Of a stretch of 64,000 bases of DNA, positions 1,480-64,000 are shown piece after piece. The stretch covers positions 1-64,000 of the forward strand of contig CAMPDV010001572.1 in assembly GCA_946699065.1 (NCBI GenBank), in the 5' to 3' direction. The first letter of the stretch is position 1, and each line of letters starts with the position of its first letter. Source of the DNA: Loxodes magnus. Its lineage: Eukaryota; Ciliophora; Karyorelictea; Loxodida; Loxodidae. The notes under the pieces were generated by a model, which was given only the letters and a program-made list of their open reading frames with translations, was not told where the DNA came from and did not search any database. The translations under genes and the position numbers were made by a program.

Positions 1480-3550
1480 TCTTTCTATTTAGTATTAAAT
1501 ATCAAGTTAGTGTCACTTGCTTAGTCTTTTTCAAAACCAAATTACTCTAATGTTTATGTATGTTTAAGTTTAATGTATGCTATCTTTTCTGTGAAAATTT
1601 TTTGGATTATTATTAAAATTAGTTTCATCTATTAGTTATAGAAGTGAGCTAGTTACTTATAGAAACTTATTTTTTTCAAAAAGTTCTAGTAATTCCATTT
1701 TTTCTCCCATGGTGTTAAACTTTGTCTTTTCCATAGATCTTAGGTAACTTTAATAATTTTATCTCAGTATTCATTCAGTTGGATGATCTTTTATTATTCT
1801 TTCAATTATTGCCTATCTAGTGTATCATTTAATAATTAGTTAAGCAAATTTTTACTTTAGGATTCAAATTTTTGCTTGCTACTTGTCTTTATAATTTCTT
1901 TAGCATTTTTTTAGGTTTTCTATTTTTATTTATGTATCTTTTATTTTAATTTGCTATTTCTTGTTACATATTTTAACGCTTTTTTGATAATTCAGCACAA
2001 TTTATTATTAATTTTATTGCTTTTTTATCTTCTACAACATTTAGTACTGTGTCCAATTTTAGACAGTTTAAACATCATCATATATTGCCGAATAGCATAA
2101 TTTTACACGTAATTTTTTTTCATCTAGTCAAATAGGAATATTTTCTGGATAAGTGATTTCTGATAATTCTAGGGCGTAATAGTTCTACATAAAGTCATGT
2201 TGCTCCCTTTATTGAATGTAAAACTGTTTTTTTGTATTTTCGAAGGCTTTTAACTGTTTTTCTGTTGGAACTAAATTTTTTAAATACTTAAAAGTAGTGA
2301 ATTAAGTAGCTATTATTATTGTAGTATTTATTAATATTTCTCTTCTTGATAAAAATATCAAAAGATTAATGTTGCCATTGTTTATCTTAGAGAATTTATT
2401 AAGATATTCTTAATCAGAGAAAGCAGTTAGAATAAGTACAGTTGGTATTATTTGTACTTAATCTATAGTTATCCAAAATCTCTCTATATGTGTATGAAGA
2501 ATTCCATTAATGAGGCATATTATTTTATTTTTGCTTTGCTTGAGTTGTAATTTTGAAATGTCTCCCTATATGAATTAATTAATTAATTTACGTGATTTCA
2601 CCTTTATTTGGTTAATCACAAATCAAAAGTTGAATGCTAAAAAAAGAAACTTCATTTTTGCTGGGATCTTGTTTATCATAAGTTCTAAGGATTTTTAATT
2701 TATTTTTTCTGAGAGTTTCCGATAGGTTGATTCCCATTCATTCCTTATTAAATTCGTTAATTGCATGCTATATGTTTGGAGCTTATTTGTTTAGCTGAAG
2801 TATTTTTTCCTGTAGAGTTTACCTTCTTGATTGCAATAGATCCTGAAAATACTTCCCATTAGTTTTCTACTTTTTTTTTTTCATTAGAATTGGAAGCAAC
2901 TTATAACTTCGTGCTGCTGGGCACTTGCAGTACTAACATCTCATTATTTTCCAATAGGGAATATAATTTTTTGTAGGCTGTTGCTCTACATCCATTGTAT
3001 AATTCATTGACATCTTTTATAGCAATAAGCTTTCAGTTAACTCTGTGAATTGGTTAAATTTTGTTTCTAATTATTCTATTCTTATATTTCCCAGCTATTT
3101 ATTTTCTATTTTTTTTCTTATGAATTAATCATAAGACTTTCAGTTTTTCTTTCGAGTTCTTGTACAGTTTTTAAAAATTTAAAATTTTCTAATTGCATAG
3201 CTTGGAGTTTTTAAAGTATTTTTTATTAATCGTAATTTGACTAAGATGAATCCTTTTGAGAAGAGACTTTTACAAATAATTTTCATTTTTTTTAAATATA
3301 AAATTGAGATAGATTATTCTTATTTTTTAGATGAAGTTTTCTACTTTATTTACTTTAAAAATTATTCATTTTAGAAAATTTTATTTTCTGCTAATTTTAT
3401 TAATTCATCATATTTTCCTTACTTTTTTTCATCATTAAAAATCCCTCCTAAAAGCTTTATCTGGATGTTGTTTAAATCATACTGGCTTATCATATTAATC
3501 TCGAAAAGTTATTATGTTTAAGTTTTTATCGAGAGTTAAGGTGTTATAAT
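1480..3550 (-). pseudogene. ORF1-like long frame upstream of the minus-strand endonuclease
   Basis: One minus-strand frame reads sensibly for several hundred codons with TGA as Trp: FPIGKQWDVSTASAQQHEVI around 2.95 kb, FWITIDQVQIIPTVLILTAF around 2.45 kb, and LKAFENTKKQFYIQQREQH then ENIPIWLDEKKLRVKL near 2.1-2.25 kb. The first part (about 3.3-3.5 kb) uses another frame (NDEKKQGKYDELIKLAEN) whose copy-B counterpart differs partly by synonymous CAA/TAA changes. It is Lys/Gln-rich with possible coiled coils, and I recognise no named domain. Its position ahead of the endonuclease suggests ORF1 of the minus-strand LINE. Partial copies are at 45.9-46.9 kb and 58.23-59.5 kb. Frameshifts make it a likely pseudogene. 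Confidence 0.45.
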
Positions 3551-3555
3551 GGCTT

Positions 3556-4051
3556 TGCTTTACTATTGGTCACACAATGGACATTTTTAAGTATATAGAT
3601 TTTAGTTTAAATAATTAAAGGAAATAATGTATTTAAGGGTTTAAGATATTGACTTGATGATAGTAGTGATGAATTAATTAGTATTTAGATATAGATATAG
3701 CTTAATGATTATTTGATTATAGCTTTGATTTGATTAGATAAATAGTAATCTAAGTAATACTTGTATAATTTGAATATTAGGATGTATTTAGAGATAGTTT
3801 TTTTGACTATGTTGAATATGCTTTGGTATGTTATAAGCTGTATGTTTGTATCTGAATAATGATAATATTTGAATAATAGATTTTTAAATATGTTTAAATA
3901 AAATGTGATTCTTTATTTATTTCAGATGCTTTAAATATTTTAATAAGTAGTAACATATTAACTAATTAAAGATATTTAAACTACTTCTTTATATATTAAA
4001 TTATATTTATTATAAATACTATTAATAATATAGATATTATTATTATGTTTA
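3556..4051. other. AT-rich spacer with G+T-rich tracts
   Basis: Spacer between the ORF1-like region and the RING-kelch stop. The plus strand is very poor in C at 3.60-3.87 kb. Copies occur in unit B (47.0-47.48 kb) and, shortened, in unit C (59.55-59.78 kb). I see no convincing coding signal. Confidence 0.4.
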
Positions 4052-5446
4052 TCAGTTATGACTTCGAATACTTCTATAACTCAATTTTTATAAATCAATC
4101 CTCATTATTGAAACTCTTTCCTATTCTACAGCAAAAACATATCCATAATTATTTCTTATTTTCATCTCCGTTAAAGCTAAAACATTTTTAAAAATTTAAC
4201 TTTATTGTCATTATTCTTTGCTTCTTTTATATATTCTTCTTGAATATTCTTTCGTAAATGGATTTTTCATACCTCCAAATATGACAAGAGGCTCTAAACA
4301 AACTATAGGCCCACCAACAGCTTCAGGAAGATTTTAATTTTACTTACTCCATCTATCATTCTATATGTTATATTTTCATATATCTTGTAAAGTTTATCCT
4401 TTCTAATTTCCACCTCCAAAAGAATAAATATTTTATTCATCTTTATCTACTACTAAAGTTTAATTTGCTATTCTAAATGGAAATTAAGAGCAGTTTTATC
4501 ATTTACTTTAGTTTCCTATCTTTAACTTTTCTACTGATTATAGCAGTTGATAATTATTAGTAACTCCTCCAACCACATAAACATATTTTTAAGCTGCTGC
4601 TATTCCAAAGGCACCTCTTCCCTCATTTAGATCACTAAGTTTTATTCTATTACCTTCAAAATCAAATTATCAAGTTTCTTTTATTACTTTATTTTAATTT
4701 CTGTTAATTCCTCCAATTAAATATAACTTATTCTAATATTCTATACTTTTACTATAGTTTGGAATTATAATTTAAACTTAGACTTATCGTAATTACTCTG
4801 TTTAAATATTAAATAAACTTAATTTTTAAATTCATCAATCAAAAAAGTGAATATAGTTAGATTATATAAAGTGCTAGGTTAGTTTATGTTAGTTAGTCTA
4901 AATAATATTTGGTTACTTAGTATTGTGTTATAGTTTTTATCTTATTAGATTGTAAGTTAATTTAGACTTTAGTATTGTAGGTGGTTATGAGTTATATTAG
5001 AGTATAGTTGGTTTTAGTGATTAGTAGAATTAGATAATATTTGAGTGTTATTTTTGGTAGATAAATGTTGGTTAATGATTGATGATGATATTAGTTAGTG
5101 GTATTATGAGAGTATTACTAATGTTTGATTATTTGGTTGTAATGGTTTTAGATTTTTCCATAATTTACCTCCTTATCTCTTTTAATTTCTATCTAGCATC
5201 TTAAATCTTTTATATGTATTATTAGTTTTAAAATATCATTCTTATTAAATCACTTTCTTAAGGTAAATCATCAAATCTAAAATGGAATCCTTTTTAACAA
5301 ATAGGACATTACATTATGCCTTATAATCAGTACTCAGTATTCAAACACAAACCACAGTAAATATGTCCACAAGGTAAGACAGTTGGAAGAGCATTAGTTA
5401 AGTTGTAATCTTCTAAGCAGATTAAGCATTTTGGTAACGCTTACAT
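4052..5446 (-). CDS. RING finger - kelch repeat protein, unit A copy
   Basis: ATG at 5446 to TGA at 4052-4054 gives exactly 465 codons. Residues 7-50 form a C3HC4-type RING: C7-x2-C10, C26-G-H28-x2-C31-x2-C34, then C47-P-I-C50. Residue 40 is TGA, at the Trp that precedes the CPxC in RING domains and contacts the E2 enzyme. A Gln/Lys helix and an Asn/Thr/Gln-rich linker (about 90-215) follow, then kelch-type repeats (YVYVVGGV, NIYSFGGG, DIWKYNIQNDRW, LVIFGGM). Further kelch tryptophans are TGA. RING proteins are usually E3 ubiquitin ligases and kelch propellers bind substrate, so a substrate-specific ligase is the likely role (inference). The terminal TGA is shared by all three copies after YRSIRS[HN]N, so here it looks like a stop. 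It lies head to head with the LINE at 5.9 kb. Confidence 0.8.
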
Positions 5447-5897
5447 TTTTATTATTATTTAGACTACAAAAGCTATAAAGGTAATTTATAACAGTTACCA
5501 TCAAAAATACACTCAATTATATCAACTATTACATTATTACTTTATTTATAGTAGTTATTTTAAAGTACAATATTAGGCTATTATATCAAGTAGCAATATC
5601 ACATTTTGCATGCCGCCAATCTTGGATCAAGATTGCTTAGTAAATTTAACAAAGGCATGAAAGAGCTTTACAACTTAATCAGATCTTTTATATTATTTTT
5701 AAGAAAAATATCTATGTCGCAAAATATTTAAACTACTAGGAGGAATGCATTAAAAATAAGGAACAGAAATCTAAAATCTAAGCAACCTATCAAAAAAGGT
5801 AAGTAGATTAGAAAATCAATTCAACCACAACTCTGTGCAAATCATTATAATTGAAGAAGAAAAGAATGAGCAAATACCATAAAATGAGGAAGATAAT
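5447..5897. promoter_or_regulatory. Divergent intergenic region between RING-kelch and LINE ORF1
   Basis: About 450 bp separate the RING-kelch ATG (5446, minus) from the LINE ORF1 ATG (5898, plus). The same head-to-head arrangement recurs at 48.88-49.33 kb and 61.17-61.62 kb. The RING side is almost identical between copies, while the LINE side differs by roughly 10-15% with indels. A shared stretch contains an inverted pair around 5.62 kb (AATCTTGGATCAAGATT). Any promoter activity is inferred from geometry only. Confidence 0.35.
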
Positions 5898-6680
5898 ATG
5901 CAGCTCAAAACTGCTAAAAGAGTAGGAGTTACTTATTTCAATAAATTTTTAGAAGAAAATTACTACAACCAAAGACTCAGTCCAGCAGAAATGCAAGAAA
6001 ATGAAATAATTAAAGCTTTTCTCAGATATCTGAATTAAAAATATGGTAAAAATATTTAGAGTGTGAAAATCCTTCGGACACTAATAATTATTATAGAATT
6101 CAAAAATAAGGAAACACTCACACAATTCGGAAATAATTAAACATAGAAGATTAGAAATGATGTAATACCAACAGAGCAAAGAAATAAAGAGGAATTCTAC
6201 AACTTTAAGAACTACCCGATTCACTGAACATTTAACATGTATTCAAGTTTAAGCCAGGTAGAAACCCATCTATAGCAGTACAGAAAAATAGTATATATAC
6301 AGAGATCGGAACCGTAAAAGGTACAACGTGAGCCAATGGGAAAATGAAAAATTATTTAGAATTGAAGGAGATCAAAGATGCAGAAAGTATACTAGATAAT
6401 TTAGACGAAAGGTAAAGCATTTACTTGAGTCAGTCTGGAAATCCCATACACGTATCGTTGTATCGCCAACCATCAATTTTAAAATATTTAAACTGCAACA
6501 AATAAGGATATAGCAAAAATTAATACTTAATAAAAAAAGCTATAAAGGAAGTAATTAAAAATGCTAAAGAAGTAAAAATCAAGTTGATGCATTCGGAAAT
6601 CAGAAATAAAATGCTTTACTATAAAAAGAAACAGATAGTGAAGGAAAAGAAAGTGAAGAAAACTGAAGAAGATTAACCTT
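5898..6680 (+). pseudogene. Plus-strand LINE ORF1, unit A (decayed)
   Basis: Begins ATGCAGCTCAAAACTGC and reads MQLKTAKRVGVTYFNKFLEE, then RLSPAEMQENEIIKAFLRYL. The same start is found at 49329 and 61622. Frameshifts follow. Near 6.48 kb is the position of a single zinc knuckle, best preserved in unit C as KCMNCNQKGLSSNW; here it reads KYLNCNKQGYSKNQY, so a Cys and the His position are lost. Gln codons are mostly TAA/TAG. Likely an RNA-binding ORF1 protein, inactive in this copy. Confidence 0.5.
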
Positions 6681-6999
6681 CAAATAAAATACCACTTTTT
6701 ATTTCTAGCTAAATCAACAAATTTAAGCCATATTAAAGTTACTTTAAAAGCAATATACTTTAAAAGATATTTAACAACAAAATTAAATAATAAAACTGAG
6801 ACGAAATTATCAATGTCACAAAAAACAGAAAGTAAAATAGAAAATATGGCAAAAAACTGAAACAACTAGAAAACAGTGACAGAAAGAAAGTATGCATAAA
6901 TACAACACTGTCTCAAAAAAGATAAAAAAATATATAATGGCAAGGAAGATAGTATCGAGTAAAATACTTGAAGACATAAGTACAGAAAAATAATAAAAC

Positions 7000-7800
7000 A
7001 TTAGAATGATTTGGTTTTCATGCTATTAAAGAAGAGGAAGCTAAGAATGCAGGATAGGAGGATCAAGAAAAATAGGAAGTACAAGGAAAAACTAATATAA
7101 TAAAATAGTCAGAATTAAACATAGGCGCAGCAAATGTCAGATGAATAAAATAAACAAGAATTAAACAAGTTTATGTGTAAAGGAAGATAGAAATTATGTT
7201 AATTTAAGAAATATTTGCGGATCAAACTGATGAAATACCTTATATATACGGATTCAGAGCAATAATAAAATTGGGCACAAAACATTGCAAAGGAGTAGCA
7301 TTTTTATAAAAGATGGAATTTACGAGCAGAACCAAAGTGTTGGATATAGCGGATCTCAATCAAGCAGATCTATTTTAGTAGAAGATTAATAGGCTTAACA
7401 CTTGATGATCATGATCGGCTGGTATAAAAAAACTTATATAATACTATAACATCTGACTCTGATTAACTAATATCCATTTATGAAAGTTAAAAATAATACA
7501 TAATAAAAGAAACGGATTATAAATTTTAATATTAGGGGATTTAAATGCACATATTCCCTAATTTTTACCGTATGAACAGAATAATGCAGACTAATACTTA
7601 TTAAATTGATGAAAAATTATCTTTTAGAATGTAAAGATTCAAATCAATATCCAACCATCATCACAACATAAGGGAAATGAAAATTCAAAATAGAATACTT
7701 CTTAATAAATCAATACATTACGCCTAGCATTATCAGCACAAAATTCTATCAATAGAGACAAATAGGAGATCATTAGCCAGACAAATTAAAATAAAAATTT
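7000..7800 (+). pseudogene. Plus-strand LINE endonuclease domain, unit A
   Basis: APE-type endonuclease landmarks in order: IGAANVR at 7121, YIYGFRAIIKLGTKHCKGVA near 7.24-7.30 kb, ALDIADLNQ-like block near 7.34 kb, and LGDLNAH at 7533 (catalytic GDFNAH motif). Frameshifts separate these blocks. Comparison with unit B (50.55-51.2 kb) and unit C (62.85-63.5 kb) shows independent indels in each, so none is intact here. The function when active would be target-site nicking for target-primed reverse transcription. Confidence 0.65.
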
Positions 7801-8439
7801 CGAAAGAATTTCGAAAAACCCTAAAATTAAAAGGATAAACTTTCAAAAATTTAAGCAATAAAAGGTTAAAGAGAAATTCAAAGAATTATTCGAGAAAATA
7901 GATCTTAGCGAATTCGAAAATTTCGATAGCGAAGCATACTATGAAAAATGATTTAATTAAATCCAACAAGAAGCGACTAAAGCGATATGTGGCTTTGTAA
8001 CAAATTAAATGAGAAAATAATAATATACAGCAGAAATAATAAAACTAAGAAAATATTTCTAATAGCAAGCGAAATAAGTAAAATATCTAATTAGATAAGA
8101 ATGCTAAGAAATTGATAATTATATTAAAATGCGATAAGAAGCAAGGAGAAAATTTAGATTGCATCAAAAAAGGATAGGAAAAATAAATTAAATATTTTTT
8201 AGATGAAATTAATTAAGGAAGCTTACACAACACTTGAAAAGAAATATAAAAATAATTAAAGTAGAGAAAATTATGCATAATGGATATTAATAAACGAAAA
8301 TGATATACAGTAATAAACGAAAAGGATATGTAGAATTTTAAAGAAAGCTGAAGGAAGCTCAATAAAATTGGTAGCAACAAATTACAATACTCATAAAGGA
8401 ACACATAAACAATATAAGTTTAAAAGAAGATTTAGTGTG

Positions 8440-16429: not shown

Positions 16430-17640
16430 ATTTATTTATTTATTTTAATTATAAATATTTTTAAAATTATTAAAATGGACTAAAATTTTACTTTAGAGGT
16501 TATTTATTATTTGAAAAAATAACAAAAAATATCCTTGTTTAATATAAAAAATAAAAATTTTATTTTCTCTACAATAAATATTACTTTCATATTAGTTTAT
16601 TTTTATAACCTAAGTATTTAATTTTATAATTATAATTATTTTGTCCAAACTAATTAATTATAAATACAATTTAATTTATGTCTTAAATACTTTTTACTCT
16701 AAATAAAATTTTTATTTAATATACTAGTTTAATTTTAACTACTCTTAACTATGAAAAGATATTTCTTTTACTTATTTAAAATAAAATAATTTATTAGTCT
16801 TAATAAGCAAATCTTCTATAATTTTGATGTATTGTAGATAATCTAAAAATTTTCATTTTTCAAAGATAAAATTATTTTTATTTTTATTTATTCAAAAAAT
16901 TTACTATGATATAACGAAAGAAATTAAAATGATAACTAGAGTTAAGATTTAATTAATGTAGCATTTATAGAACCTAATTAAAATTTAAATTAGCTAAAGA
17001 AGTTAAAAATGTATTTACTTTTAATTAATTAATAAATATAATAAACTTCCAATTATTTAGTGCTTTAATAACTGAAAATATATTATATTGATGTTAGTAT
17101 TATAACTTAGTAATTTTAAATAAGTGAATTTAATATATTAATAATTAGGTAAATAAGTATTTACATATTATGTATATTAAATTATAAACTAAATTAATTA
17201 AAATTATATTCTTAAACTTTAAATTACTTAAATGCTAATAATCTAAAGCTTTTATAAACTATAACGTATTAATATAATAATTAAAATGTAAATGAAGAAA
17301 CTATGCTAATGCTGCTTATATCTATTTAATTTAGCAAGTGCAGTAAAAGAAAATAACTTAGTTATAAATAAATAATTAGCTAATAGTTAACACTTAAAGA
17401 TTTTGATTGTTTAATATAGAAACAGAATAAATTAAAGAAGTTAAAATAAATGTATTAATTCCAAAATTTAGTAGAAGCGTTAATTTCCTTTTGAAATAGC
17501 ACTTTAGAAATTAGTAGCAGATAAAAAAGAAGAAAATATATATTCATTTAGAGGAATAAATTAAACAAAAGTTATAAATGATATATGAAAGTATAATATA
17601 TAGAATGATACATGAAACTACTATTATATATAAATAAAAT
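16430..17640. other. AT-rich region, possible leader of the 17.6-kb LINE
   Basis: About 1.2 kb of very AT-rich DNA with no domain-like frame. It immediately precedes the ATG of the LINE ORF1 at 17640. Confidence 0.3.
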
Positions 17641-18480
17641 GGCACCTAAGAAATAATAGACCTCTATTAACGAATACTTGAAAAAATAAGAATAACCTAA
17701 TTTAATTGAAGAATAGCCTTAATAAGATAAAGATTAATAATCTAAGGAATCCTTTGCATAATCTGTTCAGCAAAGGATATCAAATATCCAATATGACTTG
17801 AAAAAGCAAAGATAAAAAATAGAAAATTTAGAAAACTTACTAGAAAAATTAATGGAATAATTAAACCTATAATTCCCATCCATAGATGAATCATTAAATA
17901 AAATCTAATCGTAAATAGTAATTAAATTGGAATAAATTGATAAATAATTTAACGAAGTCCCTCAAATGTTCCAATTTCATTTTTCTTAAATTGAATATCA
18001 AATAAAGCAACTTTAAGAAAAACAAGAATAATAACAAGTAATAATTTAAAAATTATAAGATTAATAAGATTAATAATCAAATATCCCAATGGAAATCGAA
18101 TCGGAATTCTAATAATAAGAAATAAATAAGATCAATTATTATCGCAAAAAGATTCGGTGCTGTTTATGCTAGAAAAATCATTGCTGGAAAAATGCTGGAA
18201 GAAACAAGAAATTGAAAAAATTAACAAGTAATAAATATTAGACTAACTTTTCAGAATATGACCAACAAGAACAGGATAAGTATACAGAAAGAAATTCTAC
18301 AACTCAAGAAACAACGAGTTTTATAAAAATGGAAGAAGAAACTATAACGATAATTGGATGAGGGAGAGACAAGGATGGCGGACTAATGTAGTCCTACGAA
18401 GTCCTTTAGTTCAGGAAAGAGCAGGAACAAAAACAAGTGAACCCTGGAGCTCTTTTCTAAGACTATAAACTTAATTTTTA
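17640..18480 (+). CDS. LINE ORF1 (Gag-like), MAPKK start
   Basis: ATG in context AAATAAAATGGCACC. The protein begins MAPKKQQTSINEYLKKQEQ and continues with a long Gln-rich coiled coil (IENLENLLEKLMEQLNLQ; IEYQIKQLQEKQEQQQ). NIPMEIESEFQQQ follows near 18.09 kb, and the knuckle RCCLCQKNHCWKN at 18.15-18.19 kb has the CX2CX3H core but Asn-Ala at the final Cys position. Gln is encoded largely by TAA/TAG. It is followed by the RT region of the same element, so it is the ORF1 protein of this LINE. Confidence 0.65.
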
Positions 18481-29215: not shown

Positions 29216-32200
29216 TCAAGTTGCTAATTTTTAATTATTGTGCTTCTCATTTGGAAAGATGAATTTTTTGTTTCTCTTTGTTTTTACATTTTCCTACGAT
29301 TTTTTTCCAGACTACTGGCTTTTATCTTATTAATCAGTTTAGTTTTCTTAGAGTATTTACTTCTTGCTCTCAAAATTAAATTTCTTATTTTGTATCTTCA
29401 ATCGTCCAGGTATTTACTTCTCTCGTAAGATTTCTAAAGAAAACTAAGTTTCATCTCTTGAATATCTATTTTCTTCTATCTTTATTTAGCTGCTTTATCT
29501 ATTGTCACACTCCTATATACTTAAATAAATTACCATGCTATTGTCTATATCAATCTTTAGTTATTTTTTATTCTTTTTCTTGCTTCTAAAATATCTAGAA
29601 CTAGTTTCCTGGTAAGAATTCTATCTCTTCAAGTCAAAAATACGATTAGAGTGATCCGAATCTTACATTCTTGCCCATTATGTATCTTTATTTTTTCTCA
29701 AGTTTTATGGTTTTCACATTGTAGTTTCAAAAACTATAGTACTCTACTATGGAATCTTATTTGATGAAATGCTTTAGTTCTTCTTTTGTCTTATTTACTT
29801 CGCTATGTCTCTAATCAAAACTATTACTCCAAAAAGTATACCAGCAAACGTTATTATACTCGATATCACTATAATACTTAAACCTAACTTCTGTGATGTT
29901 TAGGATTACACTGAACTTAGATTTCTTAGAGTTTAGTCTTAATCAAGCTAATAGAAATAGAAATTGAAGGACAGTAAAGTGATTAATCATATCTCATGCA
30001 AAACTTGGACTATATTAAGCAATTTAGATTCAAAAGGCTTACTTTTTAGGATATATAAGCATCAAAAAACTTAAGGCAATGCACAAAATGATCTGAGGTA
30101 AAGGTGATTCTTTGAAGCTTATCAAGATAATGGAAAATAGTAATCTTCTAAGTAAGAACAAGGGGTAGAATATTAAGGTTTTCTTCTCTTACTTTAACTC
30201 GTCAAATAAAGAAAAATACTTTTGAATGTATTCTTCTTTATTTTCCTCTTTGTCTTGAACTTCAGGTTTCACCTATTTTTTTAAGTCAAAAAATCTCTTT
30301 ATGATAAAGAGAAACCTAATTATCAAATAAAATTGCAACACCTATATAAAGTAAAAAATTACCAATCAAAAGATAGCGGCAAGTGTATTCAATGTGCACA
30401 ATCCATCATCAAAGTTTGAATACACAATTTGAAGAACAGATGAATAAGATATCTGAAGGTTGCTTAGTAAATAAAAAGTTAAGGAAAGTCGGTAATGTAA
30501 ATATTTAAGTCTTATGTTAGAAAGAATCTTAGTACAAGCAAACTTTTATATCTGACTCAGTGATATATCTAGGAATAAAATGGAAAGAATAAATAGTTAA
30601 TATAACCATGAATTTTCTAGAAAGCCGTAGCTGGTATATCCTAAGACTCTTCATTCTTCATCTTTAACTGCTTATTTACTATTGTTGAAATCTAAATTTT
30701 TCTGTCAATTTTTGATGATATTTTAGTTTTGCTCAAAATAGAAAGCCAATAAAATTGCTGGCTTGTTAACTTGAATATAAACGTTTGCTTAAAATATTTC
30801 AGTCATTATCATAAGTTAAAATCAGTATCCTAGAGAATTTCCTTATGCTATAATCAAACTAACAGTAGAAACTGTACCAACTCCAATTATGGCTCCATTT
30901 TTTATTTATGAGATTTAATTAATTATTTTTCTTTACTGATCTGTTATATTAAAAATTTCTAGTGATGTTTCTTCATTTTCTTCATTTTCTTCATTTTCTT
31001 CATTTTCTTCATTTTCTTCATTTTCTTCATTTTCTTCATTTTCTTCATTTTCTTCATTTTCTTCATTTTCTTCATTTTCTTCATTTTCTTCATTTTCTTC
31101 ATTTTCTTCATTTTCTTCATTTTCTTCATTTTCTTCATTTTCTTCATTTTCTTCATTTTCTTCATTTTCTTCATTTTATTCCGTCATTTTCTCGCATGTA
31201 TAGTTCTCTGAAACGATAAAAGGCTAAGAACATTTTAAGCAAACAGTTCCATTTTCTGAGCATTCTTTGCAATTTTCTATAGCTTTATCGCAAGATTCAC
31301 ATATTCCTAAGCTTCACTAATCTTATTCTGTAGCAGGACACTTCTGAACACATGTATTCTAGGATAATTTATGATTTTCACATTTTAAACATTTATCTTC
31401 ATCTTCGCAGGAAATACAGTTATAATGTATTTCTTAGCAAGATATACAAGTTTTTTTAGTATCTAAGTAAAATTCATTTTAGCAATCAATGTATTATCGT
31501 TCAATTTTATCACACTTACTGCAATTTCATATTTCTTAACTGCAAGGTAAGCAAACTTAGTCATTATCGTAATCTTGCTCTGTATCATCACACTAAGTTT
31601 AGCATGTATTATTAGAAAGCATAAGACTTCTACATTCTAGACAAATATCTTTTTATTTACATTTGGTACAGTCTTAGTGGATTTCACTGCATAAAAAGCA
31701 CGTATTTTCTCCTAGTCCATAGTTAGTATAGCAAGCATCGCATATAAGCTTATCATTACTTTCATGACATTTCTAACAATTGTCGATAGTTAGATTGCAA
31801 GGATGACAAACATTATCTTTGTCTGTGTCTTATTCAAACTATGAGCATTAGTCTTTGCATTCATTTTAAGTTAGCTTTTTATTGCAAAACTAGCAGATAT
31901 TTTAAGCATCGTAATAATAATTCTTAAAGCACTCATCTACACATACATTACTTTAAAGTTTTAAAGGTGAAAAGCAGTTGAAGCATACTGATCCATTTAA
32001 AGAGCAATTGCTACAATTCTAAATATTCTGAGAGCATATCTCACATTAATCTTGACTATTAATATAAAACCCTTTTTCACAATTTAAACATACGATTCCA
32101 TCTTAACTGCACTAGAGGCAATTATTAAGTTCTTAATTACAACTTATACAAACTCCATCATTATTACTGTCTTACTCTGTAATAGGACAGCTATTTGTGC

Positions 32201-34136
32201 ATTTTTTTTATGAAAGTTTATAAGGAATTTTGCATTATATGCAAATAATCTTGTCAGAGCAATTTATACAGTTAATATCAATTGAATTACAAGGATAGCA
32301 AAAATTGTCTGCTTCAAGCACGCTAGTTGTTGTGCATTTAGTACATTAAATACCATCTTCAGTACACTCTTAGCAATTACTAAGTACAGCACTACATAGT
32401 TAACATTTTCTATCTTTGTCTTACTCTGTAATGGGACAGCTATTTATGCATTTGTTTTGCGAAAGTTTATATGGAGTTTTACATTCTATGCAAGTAATTT
32501 TGTCAGAGCAATTTATGCAGTTAATATCAATTGAATTGCACGGGTAACACAACCCATCTTATTCGTGCACATTATTTTAGTTACATACTGAGCACTTGAG
32601 TCCATCTTCGGTGCATTCAATACAATTACTAAGTACAACACTGCATAGTTAACATTTTCTGTCTTTGTCTTTGTCTTACTCTGTAATAGGACAGTTACTA
32701 GTACATTTGCTTATAGATTCTTCTAATTTTCAAGGATTAAAGCAGACATTACAAACATTTCCTTTGTTTAAGCAAGTTTAGCAATTAATGTCTGAACATT
32801 AATGACATTGGAAATCCGTTCCTACATAGTATCCGTCGATACATTTTGTACATTGCAAACCATCCAATGTACATTCTAAGCAATTCGTTAAGACTAATGA
32901 GCATGCCTTACAAATTCGAACTCCGCTCTTATCCTATTAAGTAGAAGGACAGGTATTTTAGCATTGGCCAGAGTAAAGATATTTAGTTGAACATTTAGTG
33001 CAAGTAGATTTGTCAGAACAAGCTACACAATCATTAAGATAAGATGAACATAGGTAACATATGTTGTCTTAAATGAAATATCCTGCTTAGCATTAGTTAC
33101 ATACTGTTCCAGCTAAATTGCAATAAAGACAGTTAGGAAGGGCTTAATTACATAATTCACATTTATGATCTCCGTTCTTATCTTATTGACTTGAACTACA
33201 ATCAGTTTAGCAAGTTCCATCAAGCCTAAGATAATTAGGTGATTAGCATGATAAACAAGTTGAACCATCAGAGCAAGTTTAGCATTTATTCATGGTTTAT
33301 TGGCACTATTAACATGTAAAGGGATTAGAATCTGTACTTCAAGAATCAGAGTTACACTTGCAAGTATAGATGATTGCATCTAAAAATTAATTTGCTCTAC
33401 AAGTTCAGCAAGAATTAGGTCCAGTAATCGAACATGTTAAGCAATTTGGATCACAATCATTAATACAGGAATCTGTTAAAGGAGAAGTACAATAACCCTA
33501 AGAGCAACTTAGAACACAAGGGCTTTATTAAGCAAGATCGCTAAACTCTTAATTAGTAAATCATTTGTTATATCCTCAAAATCTTAAATCTATCATTCAT
33601 CCATCAAAAGGACTATCTGATCATTAATCGTCCTTTCCAATTTCCATGAAAGATGAAGAATCTAATTAAATTCAACCTGATTCTTAAGCTACAGTATCAC
33701 AACTGAAAGTGGTTTATTTATAATATTGTATACTATTGCATCATGATAATTTCGGTTAATTAGTCATTTGAATAAGATGGAATTATCAATTACTACATCC
33801 TAGACTATTGGTTCTTTCTTCATAATATTTTTTTGAGATTGGTAACTTTCAAACAATTCAATTTTATTTTGACTCTTACCATGCTCAAAAGCTCATTTTG
33901 GTGCTTCCAGTTTGAAATTATATTATAGTATTATATTATTTGGCACATTTTATTTTTAATCAGCCAGTTACAGCTCACTAATTCTGTGAATTTACACTAG
34001 GGTCATAAGAAAAGTATGCAAAAGTAACAGTAATTGCAGTGCCAGTGAACTATTTAGCAGTAGTTGAATCAATGAGTTAGTAATATTAAGAGTTCACTTT
34101 CTAGAGACATATTAAGATAATTAGAATTACCTACAT
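29216..34136 (-). CDS. Large cysteine-rich multi-pass membrane protein (receptor-like)
   Basis: ATG at 34136 starts a signal peptide (MQVILIILICLQKVNS). Residues about 20-210 resemble a laminin-G/concanavalin fold (FDGWMIDLRFWGYNKWFTNQ). From about 209 to 980 come many Cys-x-x-Cys blocks of furin/growth-factor-receptor type. Residues about 986-1055 are 23 Asn-Glu-Glu units. About 1080-1420 hold several hydrophobic segments (IIGVGTVSTVSLIIA; LLFSIILISF; IIVISSIITFAGILFGVIVL). A basic Gln/Lys-rich tail ends at TGA 29216-29218. At least 20 in-frame TGAs read well as Trp. One frame change near 29.9 kb fits a 28-nt intron. Such Cys-rich multi-TM surface proteins are common in ciliates; ligand and role are unknown. 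It is clearly a host-type gene. Confidence 0.8.
29884..29911 (-). other. Candidate 28-nt intron in the cysteine-rich gene
   Basis: On the minus strand the segment begins GTGTAA and ends TTAG. Removing it joins ...LNSKKSKF to SLSIIVISSIITFAGILFGV, restoring a transmembrane segment in one frame. Very short introns are usual in ciliates. A simple frameshift mutation is the alternative. Confidence 0.45.
30971..31177 (-). repeat. Perfect 9-bp minisatellite, 23 copies, encodes (NEE)n
   Basis: CTTCATTTT repeated exactly 23 times (207 bp) without a mismatch. In the frame of the surrounding gene it encodes Asn-Glu-Glu, since CEKMTEQ leads into it and ETSLEIFNITDQ follows. The unit length is a multiple of three, so copy-number change would not break the gene. 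Perfect identity points to recent slippage or unequal exchange. Confidence 0.95.
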
Positions 34137-47483: not shown

Positions 47484-48878
47484 TCAGTTATTACTTCTAA
47501 TACTTCTATAACTCAATTTTTCTAAATCAATCCTCATTATTGAAACGCTTTCTTATTCTATAGCAAAAACATATCCATAGTTATTTCTTATTTTCATCTC
47601 CGTTAAAGCCACAACATTTTAAAAAATTTAGCTTTATTATCATTATTCTTTGCTTCTTTTATATATTCTTCTTGAAAATTCTTTCGTAAATCCATTTTTT
47701 AAACCTCCACATATGACAAAAGGCTTTAAAGAAACTATAGGCCCAGCAACAGCTTCAGGAAGATTCAAATTTAACTTACTTCATCTATCATTCTAAATAT
47801 TATATTTTCATATATCTTGTAAAGTTTATCCTTTCTAATTTACACCTCCAAAAGAATAAATATTTTATTCATCTTGATCTACTACTAAAGTTAAATCTGC
47901 TATTTAGATCGGAAATTAAGAGCAGTTTTATCACTTACTTTAGTTTCCTATCTTTAACTTTTCTACTGATTGTAAAGCTTGATAATTATCAGTTAATCCT
48001 CCAAACACATAAACATATTTTTAAGCTGCTGCTATTCCAAAGGTACCTCTTCCCTCATTTAGATCTTTAAGTTTTATACTATTACCTTCATAATCGAACT
48101 ACCAAGTTTCTTTTATTCCTTTATTTTAATTTCTGTTATATCCTCCAATTAAATATAACTTATTCTAATATTCTATACTTTTACTATAGTTTGGAATTAT
48201 AATTTAAACTTAGACTTATCGTAATTACTCTGTTTAAATATTAAATAAACTTAATTTTTAAATCCATCAATTAAAATAGTGAATATAGTTAGATTATATA
48301 AAGTGTTAGGTTAGTTTATTTTAATTAGTCTAAATAATATTTGGTTACTTAGTATTGTGTTATAGTTTTTATCTTATTAGATTGTAAGTTAATTTAGACT
48401 TTAGTATTGTAGGTGGTTATGAGTTATATTAGAGTATAGTTGGTTTTAGTGATTAGTAGAATTAGATAATATTTGAGTGTTATTTTTGGTAGATAAATGT
48501 TGGTTAATGATTGATGATGATATTAGTTAGTGGTATTATGAGAGTATTACTAATGTTTGATTATTTGGTTGTAATGGTTTTAGATTTTTCCATAATTTAC
48601 CTCCTTATCTCTTTTAATTTCTATCTAGCATCTTAAATCTTTTATATGTATTATTAGTTTTAAAATATCATTCTTATTAAATCACTTTCTTAAGGTAAAT
48701 CATCAAATCTAAAATGGAATCCTTTTTAACAAATAGGACATTACATTATGCCTTATAATCAGTACTCAGTATTCAAACACAAACCACAGTAAATATGTCC
48801 ACAAGGTAAGACAGTTGGAAGAGCATTAGTTAAGTTGTAATCTTCTAAGCAGATTAAGCATTTTGGTAACGCTTACAT
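47484..48878 (-). CDS. RING finger - kelch repeat protein, unit B copy
   Basis: ATG at 48878, TGA at 47484-47486, exactly 1395 bp, the same length as unit A. The RING (C7, C10, C26, H28, C31, C34, C47, C50; TGA at residue 40) and the Asn/Thr-rich linker are almost identical to unit A at nucleotide level. The kelch half carries scattered substitutions (for example VICGGLKNG against VIFGGMKNP) but no frame change. It ends IDLEKLSYRSIRSNN. Role as for the unit A copy: probable substrate-binding ubiquitin ligase, by inference. Confidence 0.8.
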
Positions 48879-49328
48879 TTTTATTATTATTTAGACTACA
48901 AAAGCTATAAAGGTAATTTATAACAGTTACCATCAAAAATACACTCAATTATATCAACTATTACATTATTACTTTATTTAGTAGTATTTACTTAAATACT
49001 ACAATATTAAGCTATTATATCAAGTAGCAATCCTATATTTCACATGCATCCAATCTCAGATCGAGATTACTTATTAAATTTAATAAAGGTATGAAAGAGC
49101 TTTACAACTTAATCAGATCATTGATATAATTTTTAAGAAAAATATCTATGTCGCAAAATCTTTAAACTACTAGGAGGAATCCACAAAATAAGGGACAGAA
49201 ATGTTAAAACTAAGTAGCCTATCAAAAAATGTAGGTAATTTAGAACATCAAACAAGATCACAGCTCTGTGCAAATCTTTTAATGAAAGAAGAAAGAACGA
49301 GTAAAGGCCTTAAAATGAGGAAGAGAAT

Positions 49329-50130
49329 ATGCAGCTCAAAACGGCTAAAAGTGTAGGAGTTACCTGTTTCAATAGATTTTTAGAAGAAGAATACTGCAGC
49401 CAAAGGCTCAATCCACCAGAAATGCAAGAAAACTAAATCATTCAAGCGTTTCTCAGATATTTGAATTAAGAATATGGTAAAAATTCTGAGAGCATGAAAA
49501 TTTTTAGAAAGGAATAATTATTATATTAATCAAAAATAAAGAAGCACTCTCACAAATTGGAAATAATTAAACATAGAAGACTAGAAATTTTTTAATACCT
49601 AAAGAACAAAGAAGCATAGAGGAATTCAATACATTAAGAGCTATCTGATTCATTGAACACTTAACATGTATTCAAGTTTTAGCCAGGTAGAAACCCATCT
49701 ATAGCAGTACGGAAAAATAGTCTGTATAGAGATGTAAAAGATACAACGTTAACCAATGGGAAAATGAAAAATTATTTAGAATTGAAGGAGGTCGAAGATG
49801 CGGAAAGTATACTATTTAAGTTAGACGAAAGGTAAAGCACTTACTTGAGTCAATCTGGAAATTCCATAAACGTATCGTTGTATCGCCAACTTCAATTTGA
49901 AAATATATGAGTTGTAACCAAAAAGGGTTCAGCTCAAATTTTTTCTAAAGAAAAAAAATCTATAAAAGAAGCAATTAAAAATGCTAAGGAAGTAAAAATC
50001 AGGTTTATGCATTCAGAAATCAGGAATAAGCAGGAATAAACAGGAATAAAACGCCTTACTATAAAGAGAAACAGATAGCGAAGGAAAAGAAAGTGAAGAA
50101 AACTGAAGAAGATTAACTTTCAAATAAAAT
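49329..50130 (+). pseudogene. Plus-strand LINE ORF1, unit B
   Basis: Starts MQLKTAKSVGVTCFNRFLEE at 49329, 451 bp upstream-to-upstream from the RING-kelch ATG. The knuckle region at about 49.91 kb reads KYMSCNQKGFSSNFF, keeping one CxxxG but with Phe at the His position. Frameshifts present. Confidence 0.5.
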
Positions 50131-50499
50131 GCTACTTTGAATTTTAAGCAAAAGCAACAAGTTTAAGCAATACTAATGTTACTTTAAAAGTGTTCGATTT
50201 TAATAGATACTTAACTACAAAATTAAATAAATAAAACGGAGATGAAACTATCAATGCCACGAAAACAGAAAGTAAAATAGGAAATATGGCAAAAAAACTG
50301 AAACGAATAGAAAATAGTGACAGGAAGGAAATATGCATAAACGAACCGATGTTTCAAAAAAAAGAAACAAATATATAATGGCAAGGAAGATACTATCAAG
50401 TAAAAAAATTGAAGATGTAAGTACAGAAAAATAATAAACATTAGAAAAATTTGGTTTTCATGCTATTAAAGAAGAGGAACTAAGAATCCAGGATAGGAG

Positions 50500-51764
50500 G
50501 ATCAAGAAAAATAGGAAGTAAAAGGAAATACTAATATAATAAAATAGAACAAATTAATCATAGGCACAACAAATGCCAGAGGAATCAAATAAAACAAGAA
50601 TTGAACAAGTTTATGTGTTAAAAGGAAGATAGAAATTATGGCGATTAAAGAAATATTTGCGGATCAAACTGATGAAGTTCCTTATATATACGGATTCAGA
50701 GCAATAATAAAATTGAGCACAAAACACTGCAAAGGAGTAGCATTTTATATAAAAGATGGAATTACCATCAGACCAAAGTATTTAATATAATGGATCTCAA
50801 TCAAGTAGAATTATTTTACAGGAAGATTAATAGGTTTAACACTTGATGATTGGCTAGCATTGATAAACGTATATAGCACTACAACATCCTACTCTAATTA
50901 ACTAATACCATTTTATGAGAATCTATAATAAAAGATATAAACAGCAAGCAGCAGAGGATTATAAATTTAATATTAGAAGATTTAAATGCGTATATTCCTC
51001 AATTTTTACCATATGAACATAATAATGCAGACTAATACTTATTAAATTGATGAAAAATTATCTTTTAGAATGTAAAGATTCAAATCAATATCCAACCATC
51101 ATCACAACATAAGAGAAATGAAAATTCAAAATAGAATACTTCTTAATAAATCATACATTACGCCTAGCATTATCAGCACAAAATTCTATAATAAGTGACC
51201 AATAGAAGATTATTAGACAGGTAAAATAAAGATAAAAGTTGCATAAGAATATCGAAAAAGCCCATTAATTAAAAGGATAAACTTTCAAAAATTAAAGCAA
51301 TAAAGGGATCAAGAGAAATTCAAAGAATGATTCGAGAAAAAGAGATATTAGCGAATTTAAAATTTAGATAGCGAAGCATACTATAAAAATCAGAATACGT
51401 CCAAGAAGTGGCCAAAGCGATATGTGAATTTGTAACAAATTAAATGATAAAATACTATATACAGCAGAAATAATAAAACTAAGAAAAACTTTCAATAGAA
51501 GGTAAAATAAGTAAATATCTAATTAGATAAAGATGCTAATAAATTGATAATTATATTAAAATGAGATAAGAAGCAAGGAGAAAATTTAGATTGAATCAAA
51601 AAAAAGATAGAAAAAATAAATTAAATATTTTCCTAGATTAAATTAATTAAAGAAACTTAAACAACACTTGAAAAGAATATAAAGACGATTAAAGTAGAGA
51701 AAATATGCATCATGGATATTAATAAACGAAAAGAATATGCAGAATTTTAAGGAAAGTAGAGAGC
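50500..51764 (+). pseudogene. Plus-strand LINE endonuclease, unit B, truncated before RT
   Basis: KEIFADQTDEVPYIYGFRAI near 50.65 kb, HCKGVAFYIKDGI near 50.73 kb, and after a frame change GRLIGLTLDDWLALINVYST near 50.82 kb; the catalytic GDFNAH block is LEDLNAY near 50.98 kb. Similarity to units A and C stops at about 51764, before the RT core, so this copy lost its 3' half. Confidence 0.6.
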
Positions 51765-52805: not shown

Positions 52806-52819
52806 AATTAATTTCAACT

Positions 52820-53515
52820 AAAAGATAACACAGGTGTCCTAAGGCCAGCTCAGAGCGGACAGAAACCGCTCACAGATCAAAAGGAGAAAAGCTGGCTTCA
52901 TTCAACCTCTCATTGTCAGGATGAACTGGGAAATCATGGCATATCGATCCTTTATATTTTATGAGTTTTAAGCCAGAGGTGTCAGAAAAATTACCACAGG
53001 GATAACTGGCTTGTGGCAGCCAAGCGTTCATAGCGACGTTGCCTTTTGATTCATCGATATCGGTTCTTCCTATCATTGTGAAGCTGAATTCACCAAGTGT
53101 TCTATTGCTCATCCGTCAAAAAGAAATGTGACCTGAGTTTAGTCCGTAGTGAACCAGTTTAATTTTACTGTATTAATTACTGCATTGCCATAGTAATAAA
53201 ACTCAATACGAGAGGAACCGTTGGTCCAGATCTCTGGTATCGCCATTGGCTAAACAGCCCGTTTGGTTACGCTACCATCTGCATAGATTATGACTGAACA
53301 TCTCTAAGTCTGAATCTAATCTGGGAGCGATGCCTTCTATCTACTTATGAAAACAATATTTTTTATATCCCAAGCTCTCCTCATTTCTGTTAACATAATA
53401 AGGACGACTAATCACATGCAAGCAGATAGGATAGATCCTTTGTAGACCACTAAGTATTGGCCTGGGGTTGTACGTATGAGAGTAAGCTTGACTTATGATT
53501 TGCTAAGACTTTTCC
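52820..53515 (+). rRNA. Fragment of LSU (26S/28S) rRNA, 3' domains, probable pseudogene
   Basis: Clear eukaryotic nuclear LSU sequence: AGATAACACAGGTGTCCTAA at the start, CCACAGGGATAACTGGCTTG near 53.0 kb (peptidyl-transferase region), AAGCGTTCATAGCGACGTTG, the ATACGAGAGGAACCG sarcin-ricin region near 53.2 kb, GCTACCATCTGC and the 3' end motif near 53.46-53.51 kb. Upstream LSU is absent, so this is only about the last fifth of the molecule, in AT-rich DNA away from any SSU or 5.8S. The left junction is TTAATTTCAACT followed by AAAAG. Probably a dispersed pseudogene. Confidence 0.9.
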
Positions 53516-53519
53516 ATGA

Positions 53520-61171: not shown

Positions 61172-61621
61172 TTTTATTATTATTTAGACTACAAAAGCTA
61201 TAAAAGGTAATTTATAACAGTTACCATCAAAAATTAGTATATAAATATCTATTATTACATTATTACTTTATTTATAGTATTTACTTAAATACTACAATAT
61301 TAGGATATTATATCAAGTAGCTATCTTACATTCTGCATGATGCCAATCTCAGATCGAGATTGGTTATTAAAATTAGCAAAGGCATGAAAGAGCTTTACAA
61401 CTTTATAAGATTTTTTATAATATTTTTAGTAAAATTTCTCTATCGCAAAATATTTAAACTACTAGGAGGAATGCACTAAAGTAAGGGACAGAAATGTTAA
61501 AACTAAATAGACTATCAAAAAAAGTAAAAATTTAGAACATCAAATAAGATCACAGCTCTGTGCAAACCCTTATAATGGAATAAGAAAAGAACGAGCAATG
61601 TCATAAAATGAGGAGGAGAAT

Positions 61622-62420
61622 ATGCAACTCAAAACTGATAAAAGAGTAGGAGTTACTTGTTTTAATAAATTTTTAGAAGAAAATTACTACAACCAAAGAC
61701 TCAGTCCAGCAGAAATGCAAGAAAATGAAATAGTTCAAGCATTTCTCAGATATCTGAAATAAGAATATGGTAAAAATATTGCAGAGTATGGAAATCTTTC
61801 AGACAGGAATAATTATTATGTGATTCAAAAATTAGGAAACACTCACACAATTCGGAAATAATAAAGCATGGAATTGTATAAATTTTGTAATACCAACAGA
61901 ACAAAGAAATATAGAGGAATTCTACAACATTAAGAAAGAACTGATTCATTGAACACTTAACATGTATTCAAGTTTGAACCAGGTAGAAACTCATCTATAG
62001 TTGTACGGAAAAATAATATGTACAGAGATCGGAACCGTAAAAGGTTCAACGTGAGCCAATGGGAAAATGAAAAATTATTTAGGATTGAAGGAGATCAAAG
62101 GTGCAGAAAATATACCAGATAAGTTAGACGAAAGATAAAGCGCTTACTTGGGTCAGTCTGGAAATCACATACACGTATCGTTGTATCGCCAACCATCAAT
62201 TTTAAAATGTATGAACTGTAACCAAAAAGGGCTCAGTTCAAATTGATACTTTAGAAAAAAAAGCTATAAAGGAAGCAATTAGAATACTAAGGAAGTAAAA
62301 ATCAGGTTGATGCATTCAGAAATCAGGAATAAAATGCCTACTATAAAGAGAAATAGATGGTGAAGGAAAAGAAAGTGGAGAAAACTGAAGAAAATTAACC
62401 TTAAAATAAAATGCTACTTT
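61622..62420 (+). pseudogene. Plus-strand LINE ORF1, unit C
   Basis: ATG at 61622: MQLKTDKRVGVTCFNKFLEE, then RLSPAEMQENEIVQAFLRYL. The knuckle-like KCMNCNQKGLSSNWYF at about 62.20 kb is the best preserved of the three copies but has Leu at the His position and TGA at the last Cys position. Frameshifts are present between these blocks. Confidence 0.55.
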
Positions 62421-62699
62421 GAATTTTTAGCAAAAGCAACAAGTTTAAGCCATATTAAAGTGACTTTAAAAGCGATATACTTTAATAGATATTTAAATAC
62501 AAAATTAAATAAATAAAACTGAGACGAAACTATCAATGTCACAAAAAACAGAAAATAAAATAGGAAATATGGCAAAAAAACTGAAACAACTAGAAAGCAG
62601 TGACAGGAAGGAAGTATACATAAACACAATGCTGTTTCAAAAAAGATAGAAAAAATATAATGGCAAGGATGAAAGTATCAAGTAAAAAAATTAAAGACA

Positions 62700-64000
62700 T
62701 AAGTAAAGGAAAAATAATAAACATTAGAATGATTTGGTTTTCACGCTATTAAAGAAGAGGAACTAAAAATGGTGGGTAGGAGGAGCAAGAAAAATAGGAA
62801 GTACAAGGAAATACTAAAATAATAAAATAGAAAGAATTAAACATAGGTACAGCAAATGTCAGAGGAATAAAATAAAACAAGGAAAAATTAAGCAAATTTA
62901 TGTGTGAAAAAAGATAGAAATTACGGCAATTTAAGAAATCTTTGTGAATCAAACTGATGAAATACCTTACATATACGGATTCAGAGCAATAATAAAATTG
63001 AGCACAAAACACTGCAAAGGAGTAGCATTTTATATAAAAGATGGAATTACCAGCAGAACCAAAGTATTGGATATAGCGGATCTCAATCAAGCAGAATTAT
63101 TTTAGAGAGGAAGTTTAATATTTTTAACACTTTATTATCAACTACCATTGATAAAAGTATATAGCACTACAACATCCGACTCTGATTAACTAATACCCTT
63201 TTATGAAAATCAATAATAATACATAATAGCAACAAACAGCAGAGGATTATAAATTTTAATATTAGAAGATTTTAATGCGCATATTTCCCAATTTTTATCG
63301 TATGAACAGAATAATACAGTCTAGTACTTACTTAACTTGATGAAAGATTTTCTTTTAGAGTATAAAGATCCAACCTTATCACAACAAAGGGGAAAGAAAA
63401 ATTAAAAAAAGAATACTTCTTAACGGATAAATATATCACACCTAGCATTATCAGCACATATTTTAACAATAGAGACTAATAGGAGATCATTAACCAGGTA
63501 AAATAAAGATAAAAATTTCGGAAGAATATCGAAAAAGCCCATAAATTAAAAAGATAAATTTTCAAAAATTAAAACAATAAAAGGCTCAAGAGAGATTCAA
63601 AGAATGATTGAAGAAAAAAGATATTAGCGAATTCGAAAATTTCGATAGCGAAGCATACTATGTAAAATGATCAGAATACATCCAAGAAGCAACCGAAGCG
63701 ATATGTGGCTTTGTAACAAATTAAGTGAGAAAATAATAATATACAGCGGAAATAATAAAATAAGAAAAAACTTCTAATAGCAGGTGAAATAAGTAAAGAT
63801 ATCTATTAGATAAGGATACTAATAAATTGATAATTATATTAAAATGAGATAAGAAGCAAGGAGAAAATTTAGATTGCATCAAAAAAAAGATAGAAAAAAT
63901 AAATTAAATATTTTATTAGATGAAATTAATTAAGGAAACTTAAACAACACTTGAAAAGGAATACAAAAATAATTAAAGTAGAGAAAATATGCCCCATGGA
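62700..64000 (+). pseudogene. Plus-strand LINE endonuclease, unit C, runs off right edge
   Basis: IGTANVRGIKQNKEKLSKFM at about 62.84 kb, YGFRAIIKLSTKHCKGVAFY near 62.98 kb, IADLNQAELF near 63.08 kb, LEDFNAHISQFLSYEQNN at 63.26 kb (catalytic GDFNAH motif) and KKEYFLTDKYITPSIISTYF near 63.41 kb. Frameshifts separate some blocks. Sequence continues in parallel with unit A up to the window end, so an RT should lie outside. Confidence 0.65.

Follow-up and report, generated by a model that had tools for sequence, protein, structure and literature searches.

A RING-kelch gene family of the ciliate Loxodes magnus with a constrained RING and a variable putative binding face

Background

TRIM proteins consist of a RING, a B-box, a coiled coil and a variable C-terminal domain, and this C-terminal recognition domain is fast-evolving. 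The RING-kelch proteins of the ciliate Loxodes magnus analyzed here resemble these proteins in the combination of a constant RING with a fast-evolving C-terminal domain that would serve for recognition, but no B-box was found in them, and kelch takes the place of SPRY or NHL. The nearest precedent for large ubiquitin-pathway families with selected sites in the binding domain are the F-box/MATH ubiquitin-ligase adapters of Caenorhabditis, which are expanded, show positive selection in the substrate-binding domain, and have been linked to the response to viruses and microsporidia, being induced by both (PMC5392922). The nematode proteins are cullin adapters, whereas the RING-kelch proteins carry the RING in the same polypeptide, employ kelch as the binding domain, and belong to a ciliate host. 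Expanded ligase adapters under positive selection are already known from nematodes, and a ciliate RING-kelch family of more than 1000 copies, in which the RING half is constrained and change is focused on a pocket resembling that of Keap1, would be an extreme case.

The kelch propeller is shared with Keap1 and the BTB-kelch (KLHL) proteins. The ligand contacts of Keap1 include Tyr334, Arg336, Ser363, Arg380, Asn382, Asn414 and Arg415, and further Phe478, Arg483, Ser508, Gly509, Ala556, Ser602 and Gly603 (PMC4506958). Most of the hypervariable codons described below align at or near these contacts. Unlike Keap1 and the KLHL proteins, the RING-kelch proteins have no BTB domain that we could find, a RING would replace the cullin route, the copies number more than 1000, and the pocket is variable, not conserved.

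The somatic assembly of L. magnus amounts to 706 Mbp, compared to a k-mer size of 261 Mbp, and harbors thousands of LINE domains (PMC11441545). In the L. magnus genetic code, TAA and TAG encode Gln, and TGA is read as Trp or as a stop depending on the context, with TGA and TAA depleted in the approximately 20 codons that precede the true stop (PMC11441545). A word search for kelch, RING and ubiquitin found none of these terms in the main text of PMC11441545, and no earlier description of the present RING-kelch family was found in the open-access papers searched. As shown below, “repeat” sequence of L. magnus conceals a gene family of very large size, which is readable only with TGA as Trp.

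RING-kelch genes of the window and their genetic code

The window, that is, the whole stretch of 64,000 nucleotides analyzed here (positions 1 to 64,000 of contig CAMPDV010001572.1), contains three RING-kelch genes. The original prediction gave the coordinates of copy A, the three lengths, and the common ATG and final TGA correctly; all three are on the minus strand, and the two separate 3-bp deletions that distinguish copy C from copies A and B were borne out by alignment.

4052..5446, minus strand: RING-kelch gene copy A, 1395 bp, 465 codons including the terminal TGA
47484..48878, minus strand: RING-kelch gene copy B, 1395 bp, 465 codons
59783..61171, minus strand: RING-kelch gene copy C, 1389 bp, 463 codons, with two 3-bp deletions
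5267..5446, minus strand: C3HC4 RING, codons 1-60 of copy A
4835..5266, minus strand: polar linker, codons 61-204 of copy A; some genome copies are longer by multiples of three
4055..4834, minus strand: kelch region, codons 205-464 of copy A, with Pfam matches; holds the hypervariable codons
4942..5466, minus strand: block from -20 to +505 of copy A, with zero differences among 23 copies (the three of the window and 20 chosen by similarity)
2256..4051, no strand assigned: 3' flank of the gene in the duplicated unit, with common frameshifting indels

Under the bacterial code (table 11), the window has no open reading frame of at least 150 amino acids, and under table 6, copy A is split by 7 internal TGAs; both codes were discarded in favor of TGA as Trp. 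Copies A, B and C are open solely when TAA and TAG are read as Gln and TGA as Trp, as in the karyorelict code (table 27). A tRNA search returned none. At conserved Trp codons of kelch, TGA and TGG are exchanged between copies, and TGA is also found at the RING Trp. Among 55 unique open copies, TGA and TGG occur, respectively, 34 and 20 times at codon 413, 45 and 9 times at codon 259, and 10 and 45 times at codon 366. Within the final 20 codons, TGA is absent and TAA occurs 3 times among 1095 codons, compared to 1.66% and 8.97%, respectively, in codons 205-444. This scarcity near the 3' end agrees with the stop-context rule of L. magnus (PMC11441545), although that of TAA is in part compositional because there is almost no Gln among the last 20 residues.

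Domain architecture

In the Pfam search with copy A, the best RING match was zf-RING_UBOX (3.1e-9), and kelch was represented by PF24681 (1.4e-29) together with Kelch_1, 4 and 6. The kelch region consists of repeated motifs with GG doublets and a distal Trp, and its best solved relatives are kelch proteins. All eight zinc ligands of the C3HC4 RING (C7, C10, C26, H28, C31, C34, C47 and C50) are invariant in 32 of the 32 aligned proteins. The residues that contact the E2 are known from c-Cbl: an Ile between the first two Cys, a Trp, and a Pro after the seventh Cys. Of the corresponding residues in the RING-kelch proteins, I9 and P48 are invariant and W40 is present in at least 90% of the 32 proteins. 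The RING-kelch proteins are predicted, from these sequence features, to be RING-type E3 ubiquitin ligases. The RING is N-terminal. Copies A and C were each matched to 18 listed Pfam families, with no BTB domain among them; a B-box, as would be typical of TRIM, was likewise missing from the 18 families listed. A RAG-like origin, to which the joint presence of RING and kelch might point, was considered but not retained.

Six of the 55 copies have Trp at position 39 and Tyr at position 40, and in these six (loci L032, L038, L044, L057, L058 and L059), an alternative RING loop, WYLQDFEW, replaces YWLQGIMQ. Thus, the RING half comes in at least two versions.

Copy number and tandem arrays

The searched assembly has 7843 contigs that total 705,730,643 bases. 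When up to 3 mismatches were allowed, a pattern of the gene's first 35 bases produced 1203 matches genome-wide, and a 36-base tail pattern produced 1155; the reversed controls both yielded 0. A kelch 29-mer pattern gave 721 matches which, the pattern being partly incorrect, is a poor lower bound. Copies from both haplotypes may inflate the family count: given that the assembly may contain both (706 vs 261 Mbp, PMC11441545), distinct loci are perhaps about half as numerous as the matches.

The copies listed run mostly head to tail, with mixed orientation on contigs C122 and C143, and unit lengths are repeated on some contigs, for example, 6910, 6910, 6915, 8203 and 8218 bp on C132, and 16956, 16951 and 16941 bp on C22. 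Altogether, several contigs have head-to-tail rows with such repeated lengths (6910, 8203-8273 and 16941-16956 bp). Among the matches listed, copies are located near contig ends on C2, C13, C22, C24, C35, C90 and C122; these could be subtelomeric, or could reflect mere assembly breaks because arrays break assemblies. Viral contigs were scanned for relatives with two short peptide patterns, a narrow test in which 51 stretches matched and 0 were relatives.

The reading frame is maintained across copies

Selection on the protein had been proposed from the three window copies. Within the 1395-bp gene, there are no indels between A and B, and two, each of 3 bp, in both the A/C and B/C comparisons. 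In the 2868 bp beyond the gene start, the corresponding numbers are 41 (A/B), 33 (A/C) and 35 (B/C), of which only 2, 3 and 0 are multiples of 3.

Two samples of genomic copies extend this comparison. The similarity sample (L009-L028) consists of ranks 2 to 21 among 40 scored matches to copy A and is biased to intact copies; all 20 are open. The start-end sample (L029-L068) consists of 40 loci taken from the 100 start matches listed (of 1203, the first in contig order), with the rest of the gene ignored; an intact start end is required, only contigs C2 to C264 are represented, and 38 of the 40 are usable. In this sample, 33 of the 38 usable copies are open: L029-L048 contribute 16 (of 20) and L049-L068 contribute 17 (of 18). 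These include L047, with a 1-bp insertion close to the very end, and L045, for which the examined sequence stops before the gene end. The broken copies are L030 and L031 (a 1-bp deletion each), L039 (frameshifts), L043 (ending at about codon 68) and L066 (a 4-bp deletion).

Pairing of 95 listed starts with the listed exact-match tails yielded 55 matched start-tail pairs, a set that leans to better-kept copies. The start-to-tail distance is in phase in 52 of these 55 pairs and of the exact length in 43, and 28 of the 29 pairs outside the sequence-sampled loci are in phase; a net length in phase may mask compensating indels, as in L039. In a set of 21 copies (the three window copies and the similarity sample, minus two near-duplicates), the gene has 0.0035 indels per substitution, each of them a multiple of 3 in length, compared to 0.082 for the relic upstream and 0.122 for the flank on the 3' side. 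The gene frame is maintained across copies, and selection on the protein extends beyond the three copies from which it was proposed; an accumulation of frame-breaking indels at a neutral rate across most copies was not seen in the loci sampled.

A decayed LINE fragment accompanies the gene

Upstream of each gene, head to head with it, lies the 5' part of a LINE.

5467..8314, plus strand: decayed LINE 5' part of copy A, head to head with the gene; no endonuclease match in copy A
48899..51745, plus strand: decayed LINE 5' part of copy B, homologous to those of A and C
61192..64000, plus strand: decayed LINE 5' part of copy C, reaching the window end; weak Exo_endo_phos_2 match at about 63205-63369

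The frameshifts that the original prediction attributed to the neighbors are evident from the indel counts given above. The endonuclease is weakly recognizable: Exo_endo_phos_2 (PF14529) was matched with E=0.0055 in copy C and 6.7e-5 in L024, both below the curated Pfam cut-off, and only stray Pfam matches were obtained for copy A (three frames), L014 and L021. For an ORF1, the stretches scanned gave no Pfam match. L. magnus LINEs contain Exo_endo_phos_2 (PMC11441545), of which the upstream relic has a remnant, a likeness by domain only; compared to these LINEs, the relic is decayed.

The relic and the gene are tightly linked. A conserved 36-mer of the relic has 500 matches in the genome, and among 24 that were checked (on contigs C2 to C201, from 100 listed of the 500), a gene start is nearby in all 24, three of these starts being inferred from tail or kelch matches. 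The distance to the start is about 430-560 bases in 22 of the 24 cases and about 1060-1080 bases in the other 2. Conversely, in 20 of 20 high-scoring loci, the gene is found together with LINE-side sequence of 640 bases or more.

This linkage in both directions is what would be expected if the gene belonged to a mobile element, a LINE or a larger composite, and aided that element, for example, by degrading host restriction factors. A kelch scrap elsewhere in the window (17480-17614) that adjoins an ORF1-like frame, as judged by eye, points in the same direction. However, in an autonomous LINE, the gene would be on the sense strand of an element with a reverse transcriptase, whereas here the gene and the LINE part are on opposite strands, the LINE part has decayed, and no Pfam match to reverse transcriptase was obtained in the neighbor stretches scanned. 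In tests of independent insertion sites, the gene-relic junction was found to be nearly fixed and the unit lengths were repeated in head-to-tail rows, as in tandem duplication. Furthermore, per-base divergence in kelch is about half that of the LINE part (51.9 substitutions per pair in 783 bases vs 170.8 in about 1220). We therefore consider a gene serving an element improbable. The repeated unit lengths together with the relic beside the gene start in 24 of 24 cases point to tandem duplication that took a passenger along, rather than to independent insertion of LINEs, and on this reading the upstream LINE piece is a decayed passenger. Of the two options that the original prediction left standing, a host ubiquitin-ligase family is favored over a gene used by the element.

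The kelch scrap is on the plus strand and shares about 78-80% identity with the three genes around codons 320-366, with a Kelch_4 match at 0.029; it directly precedes the ORF1-like frame (17612-18361).

Variable positions align with the ligand-binding face of Keap1

Sixteen of the 260 kelch codons (205, 230, 231, 249, 279, 295, 301, 328, 346, 350, 378, 379, 396, 423, 440 and 443) hold 408 of the 947 amino-acid changes counted in 38 copies (43%). Codon 205, the most variable, accommodates 11 residues among 55 copies, and codons 230, 231 and 346 accommodate 11 to 12 each. The residue combinations at the 16 sites are distinct in 51 of the 55 copies and in 30 of 33 in the start-end sample. The hypervariable codons recur at blade spacing, in one series formed by 231, 279, 328, 378 and 423, and another by 205, 249, 295-301, 346-350, 396 and 440-443.

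A HMMER alignment to the designed SAKe kelch chains, which we take to be derived from Keap1, places codons 278-279 at the loop Ser-Gly that precedes the GG doublet. The mapping to the Keap1 face relies on sequence alignment and on distances to GG doublets, with the numbering of the Keap1 contacts relative to these doublets being as we presume it. The contact set was defined by offsets -15, -14, +2, +4 and +7 from the first G of the blade in five blades, that is, 25 codons; the fifth blade, which has no GG, was placed at F438, and the offsets were fixed post hoc, with the variable sites already seen.

Counting by parsimony over a 55-copy tree, a procedure that disregards the apparently frequent recombination between copies, gives a dN/dS of 1.65 for the 25 offset codons (N 468.5, S 81.5), 0.57 for the remaining 234 codons of kelch (N 886.2, S 379.8), 0.46 for the RING, and 0.86, that is, near neutral, for the linker. 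The offset codons differ from the rest of kelch with p=1.8e-10 (Mann-Whitney), and 0 of 258 rotations of the set attain the observed mean. Pairwise estimates without a tree for the 33 open start-end copies are similar: 1.51 for the offsets, 0.50 for the rest of kelch, and 0.53 for the RING. The RING is constrained. Over shifts of the set of at most 12 codons, evaluated on 38 copies, amino-acid changes averaged 12.9 at zero shift, which is the maximum, with 7.7 as the next value; dN/dS itself, in contrast, was higher at +2 (2.34) and similar at -2 (1.71), where synonymous counts are smaller. Synonymous counts are somewhat raised at the offset codons (p=0.004). Thus, by sequence alignment, amino-acid change per codon is highest at the kelch positions that correspond to the ligand-binding face of Keap1.

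From codon 206 on, 15 codons show at least 15 changes, of which 8 are on offsets and 7 are off by 1-2 residues; codon 205 precedes the first offset and is unexplained by the scheme. The 25 offset codons account for 35% of the amino-acid changes in kelch, so that two thirds occur elsewhere. Enrichment of aromatic residues in the pocket was not seen; in the 55-copy set, Gly, Ala and Arg are enriched instead.

These estimates also bear on whether the variation is simply relaxed, with redundant copies in which the kelch half mutates freely while recent homogenization holds the frame. The near-neutral linker, the 5 broken copies among the 38 sampled, and the strong homogenization of the 5' half in many copies all fit such a scenario, but the flanks of the same copies exceed the gene 20- to 35-fold in indels per substitution, constraint (0.50-0.57) is evident in the kelch codons outside the offset set, and change per codon is maximal at loop positions. 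Accordingly, relaxed variation is already disfavored, and we regard it as very unlikely.

The 5' half is homogenized within subfamilies

The edges of the block that is identical in 23 copies differ: just upstream, divergence amounts to 9-20%, which makes for a sharp edge, whereas downstream it rises gradually. A candidate generalization, that the first 505 bp are invariant genome-wide, proved wrong because it holds for these 23 copies, 20 of which had been selected for their similarity to A, but the start-end sample varies: of the 33 open copies of that sample, 22 differ from copy A at 0-5 bases of the block, and the others at up to 95. Together with the other RING loop in 6 of 55 copies, this variation indicates that the RING half is homogenized within subfamilies and not invariant. 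Immediately 5' of the ATG (-17 to -1), the sequence TCTAAATAATAATAAAA is exact in 38 of the 40 start-end copies (L029-L068), with divergence farther upstream.

Linkage disequilibrium (LD) in kelch is low. Among the 33 open start-end copies, mean r2 is 0.236 at 1-5 bp and 0.084 at 6-14 bp, and the long-range level is reached within ~15 bp; decay is slower in the 21-copy set. Frequent conversion, or changes that recur, over the arrays would be expected to produce such low LD. The LINE relic shows low LD as well, and hence reshuffling specific to the gene is unsupported.

Low LD and, in the 23 copies, a 5' block that is constant and bounded abruptly upstream but more gradually downstream would also be expected from programmed hypermutation of the pocket codons, either like that of a diversity-generating retroelement or by templated conversion from a donor. 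However, change is not adenine-directed: codon 205 is found as TTA, ACA, GAA, GAT, GGA, TAA, TGG, TAT, AAA and TGA, and at this and other codons, all codon positions and bases vary, without an adenine-only signature. Considering also that the constant block is variable in the start-end sample and that the low LD of the relic makes the reshuffling not gene-specific, we regard programmed hypermutation as very unlikely.

A possible recognition repertoire

The concentration of change at what would be target-gripping spots across more than 1000 copies suggests a large built-in recognition repertoire. We consider it likely that this is a host RING-kelch family in which a constant effector half is combined with a diversified binding face and which mediates ubiquitin tagging of foreign or hostile proteins. 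Under this scenario, the more than 1000 copies would have spread via tandem duplication of units that carry the dead LINE fragment. The RING would recruit a ubiquitin-loaded E2 and the kelch face would choose the target, so that each copy would mark a different target for ubiquitination. Gene conversion would homogenize the RING half, while selection would diversify the pocket. The repertoire would recognize foreign or hostile intracellular proteins, those of parasites, viruses or selfish elements, and the binding face probably recognizes foreign proteins.

A stronger version, which we put forward tentatively, as a possibility somewhat short of an even chance, is an antibody-like germline repertoire of intracellular ubiquitin ligases, with one constant effector half and more than 1000 diversified pockets reshuffled by conversion across the tandem arrays, that recognizes and destroys foreign proteins.

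The same diversified E3 family might instead function in self/non-self or mating-type recognition, or in tuning the cell's own proteins, and not in defense. The combination of a hypervariable surface with a constant effector is also typical of allorecognition loci, and the genome-copy data do not discriminate between targets for defense and those for self recognition; however, more than 1000 copies seem, in our judgment, many for a mating-type system, and on balance, we find a role other than defense rather unlikely. If the preferred interpretation, a host family directed at foreign proteins, is true, these genes would offer a clear-cut way to ask whether ubiquitin ligases form an immune-like repertoire in protists, given that the effector and recognition parts are separated within the sequence itself.

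Other features of the window

Between units B and C, on the plus strand, positions 52808-53530 hold a piece of the 3' end of a eukaryotic LSU rRNA, which Rfam detects as three matches in a row (128-143 bits) and which may represent a dispersed fragment of rRNA. On the minus strand, at 31184-33268, behind an ORF of 694 amino acids, there is a second minus-strand frame that is rich in Cys (112 of 694 residues) and looks like a Cys-repeat surface-type protein; a Pfam scan of the Cys-poor frame alone gave no match. This region encompasses a 249-bp tandem duplication (32168-32671). Nearby, at 30968-31181, about 24 nearly perfect copies of the 9-bp unit TTTCTTCAT lie within a plus-strand ORF of 378 amino acids. 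Finally, positions 40302-40820 on the plus strand encode WD40 repeats (PF00400, 1.4e-37) in 126-bp tandem units; the matches fall in two frames, which implies a frame change or an intron between the two parts, and, as judged by eye, TGA is present at a Trp-like position of the repeat unit.
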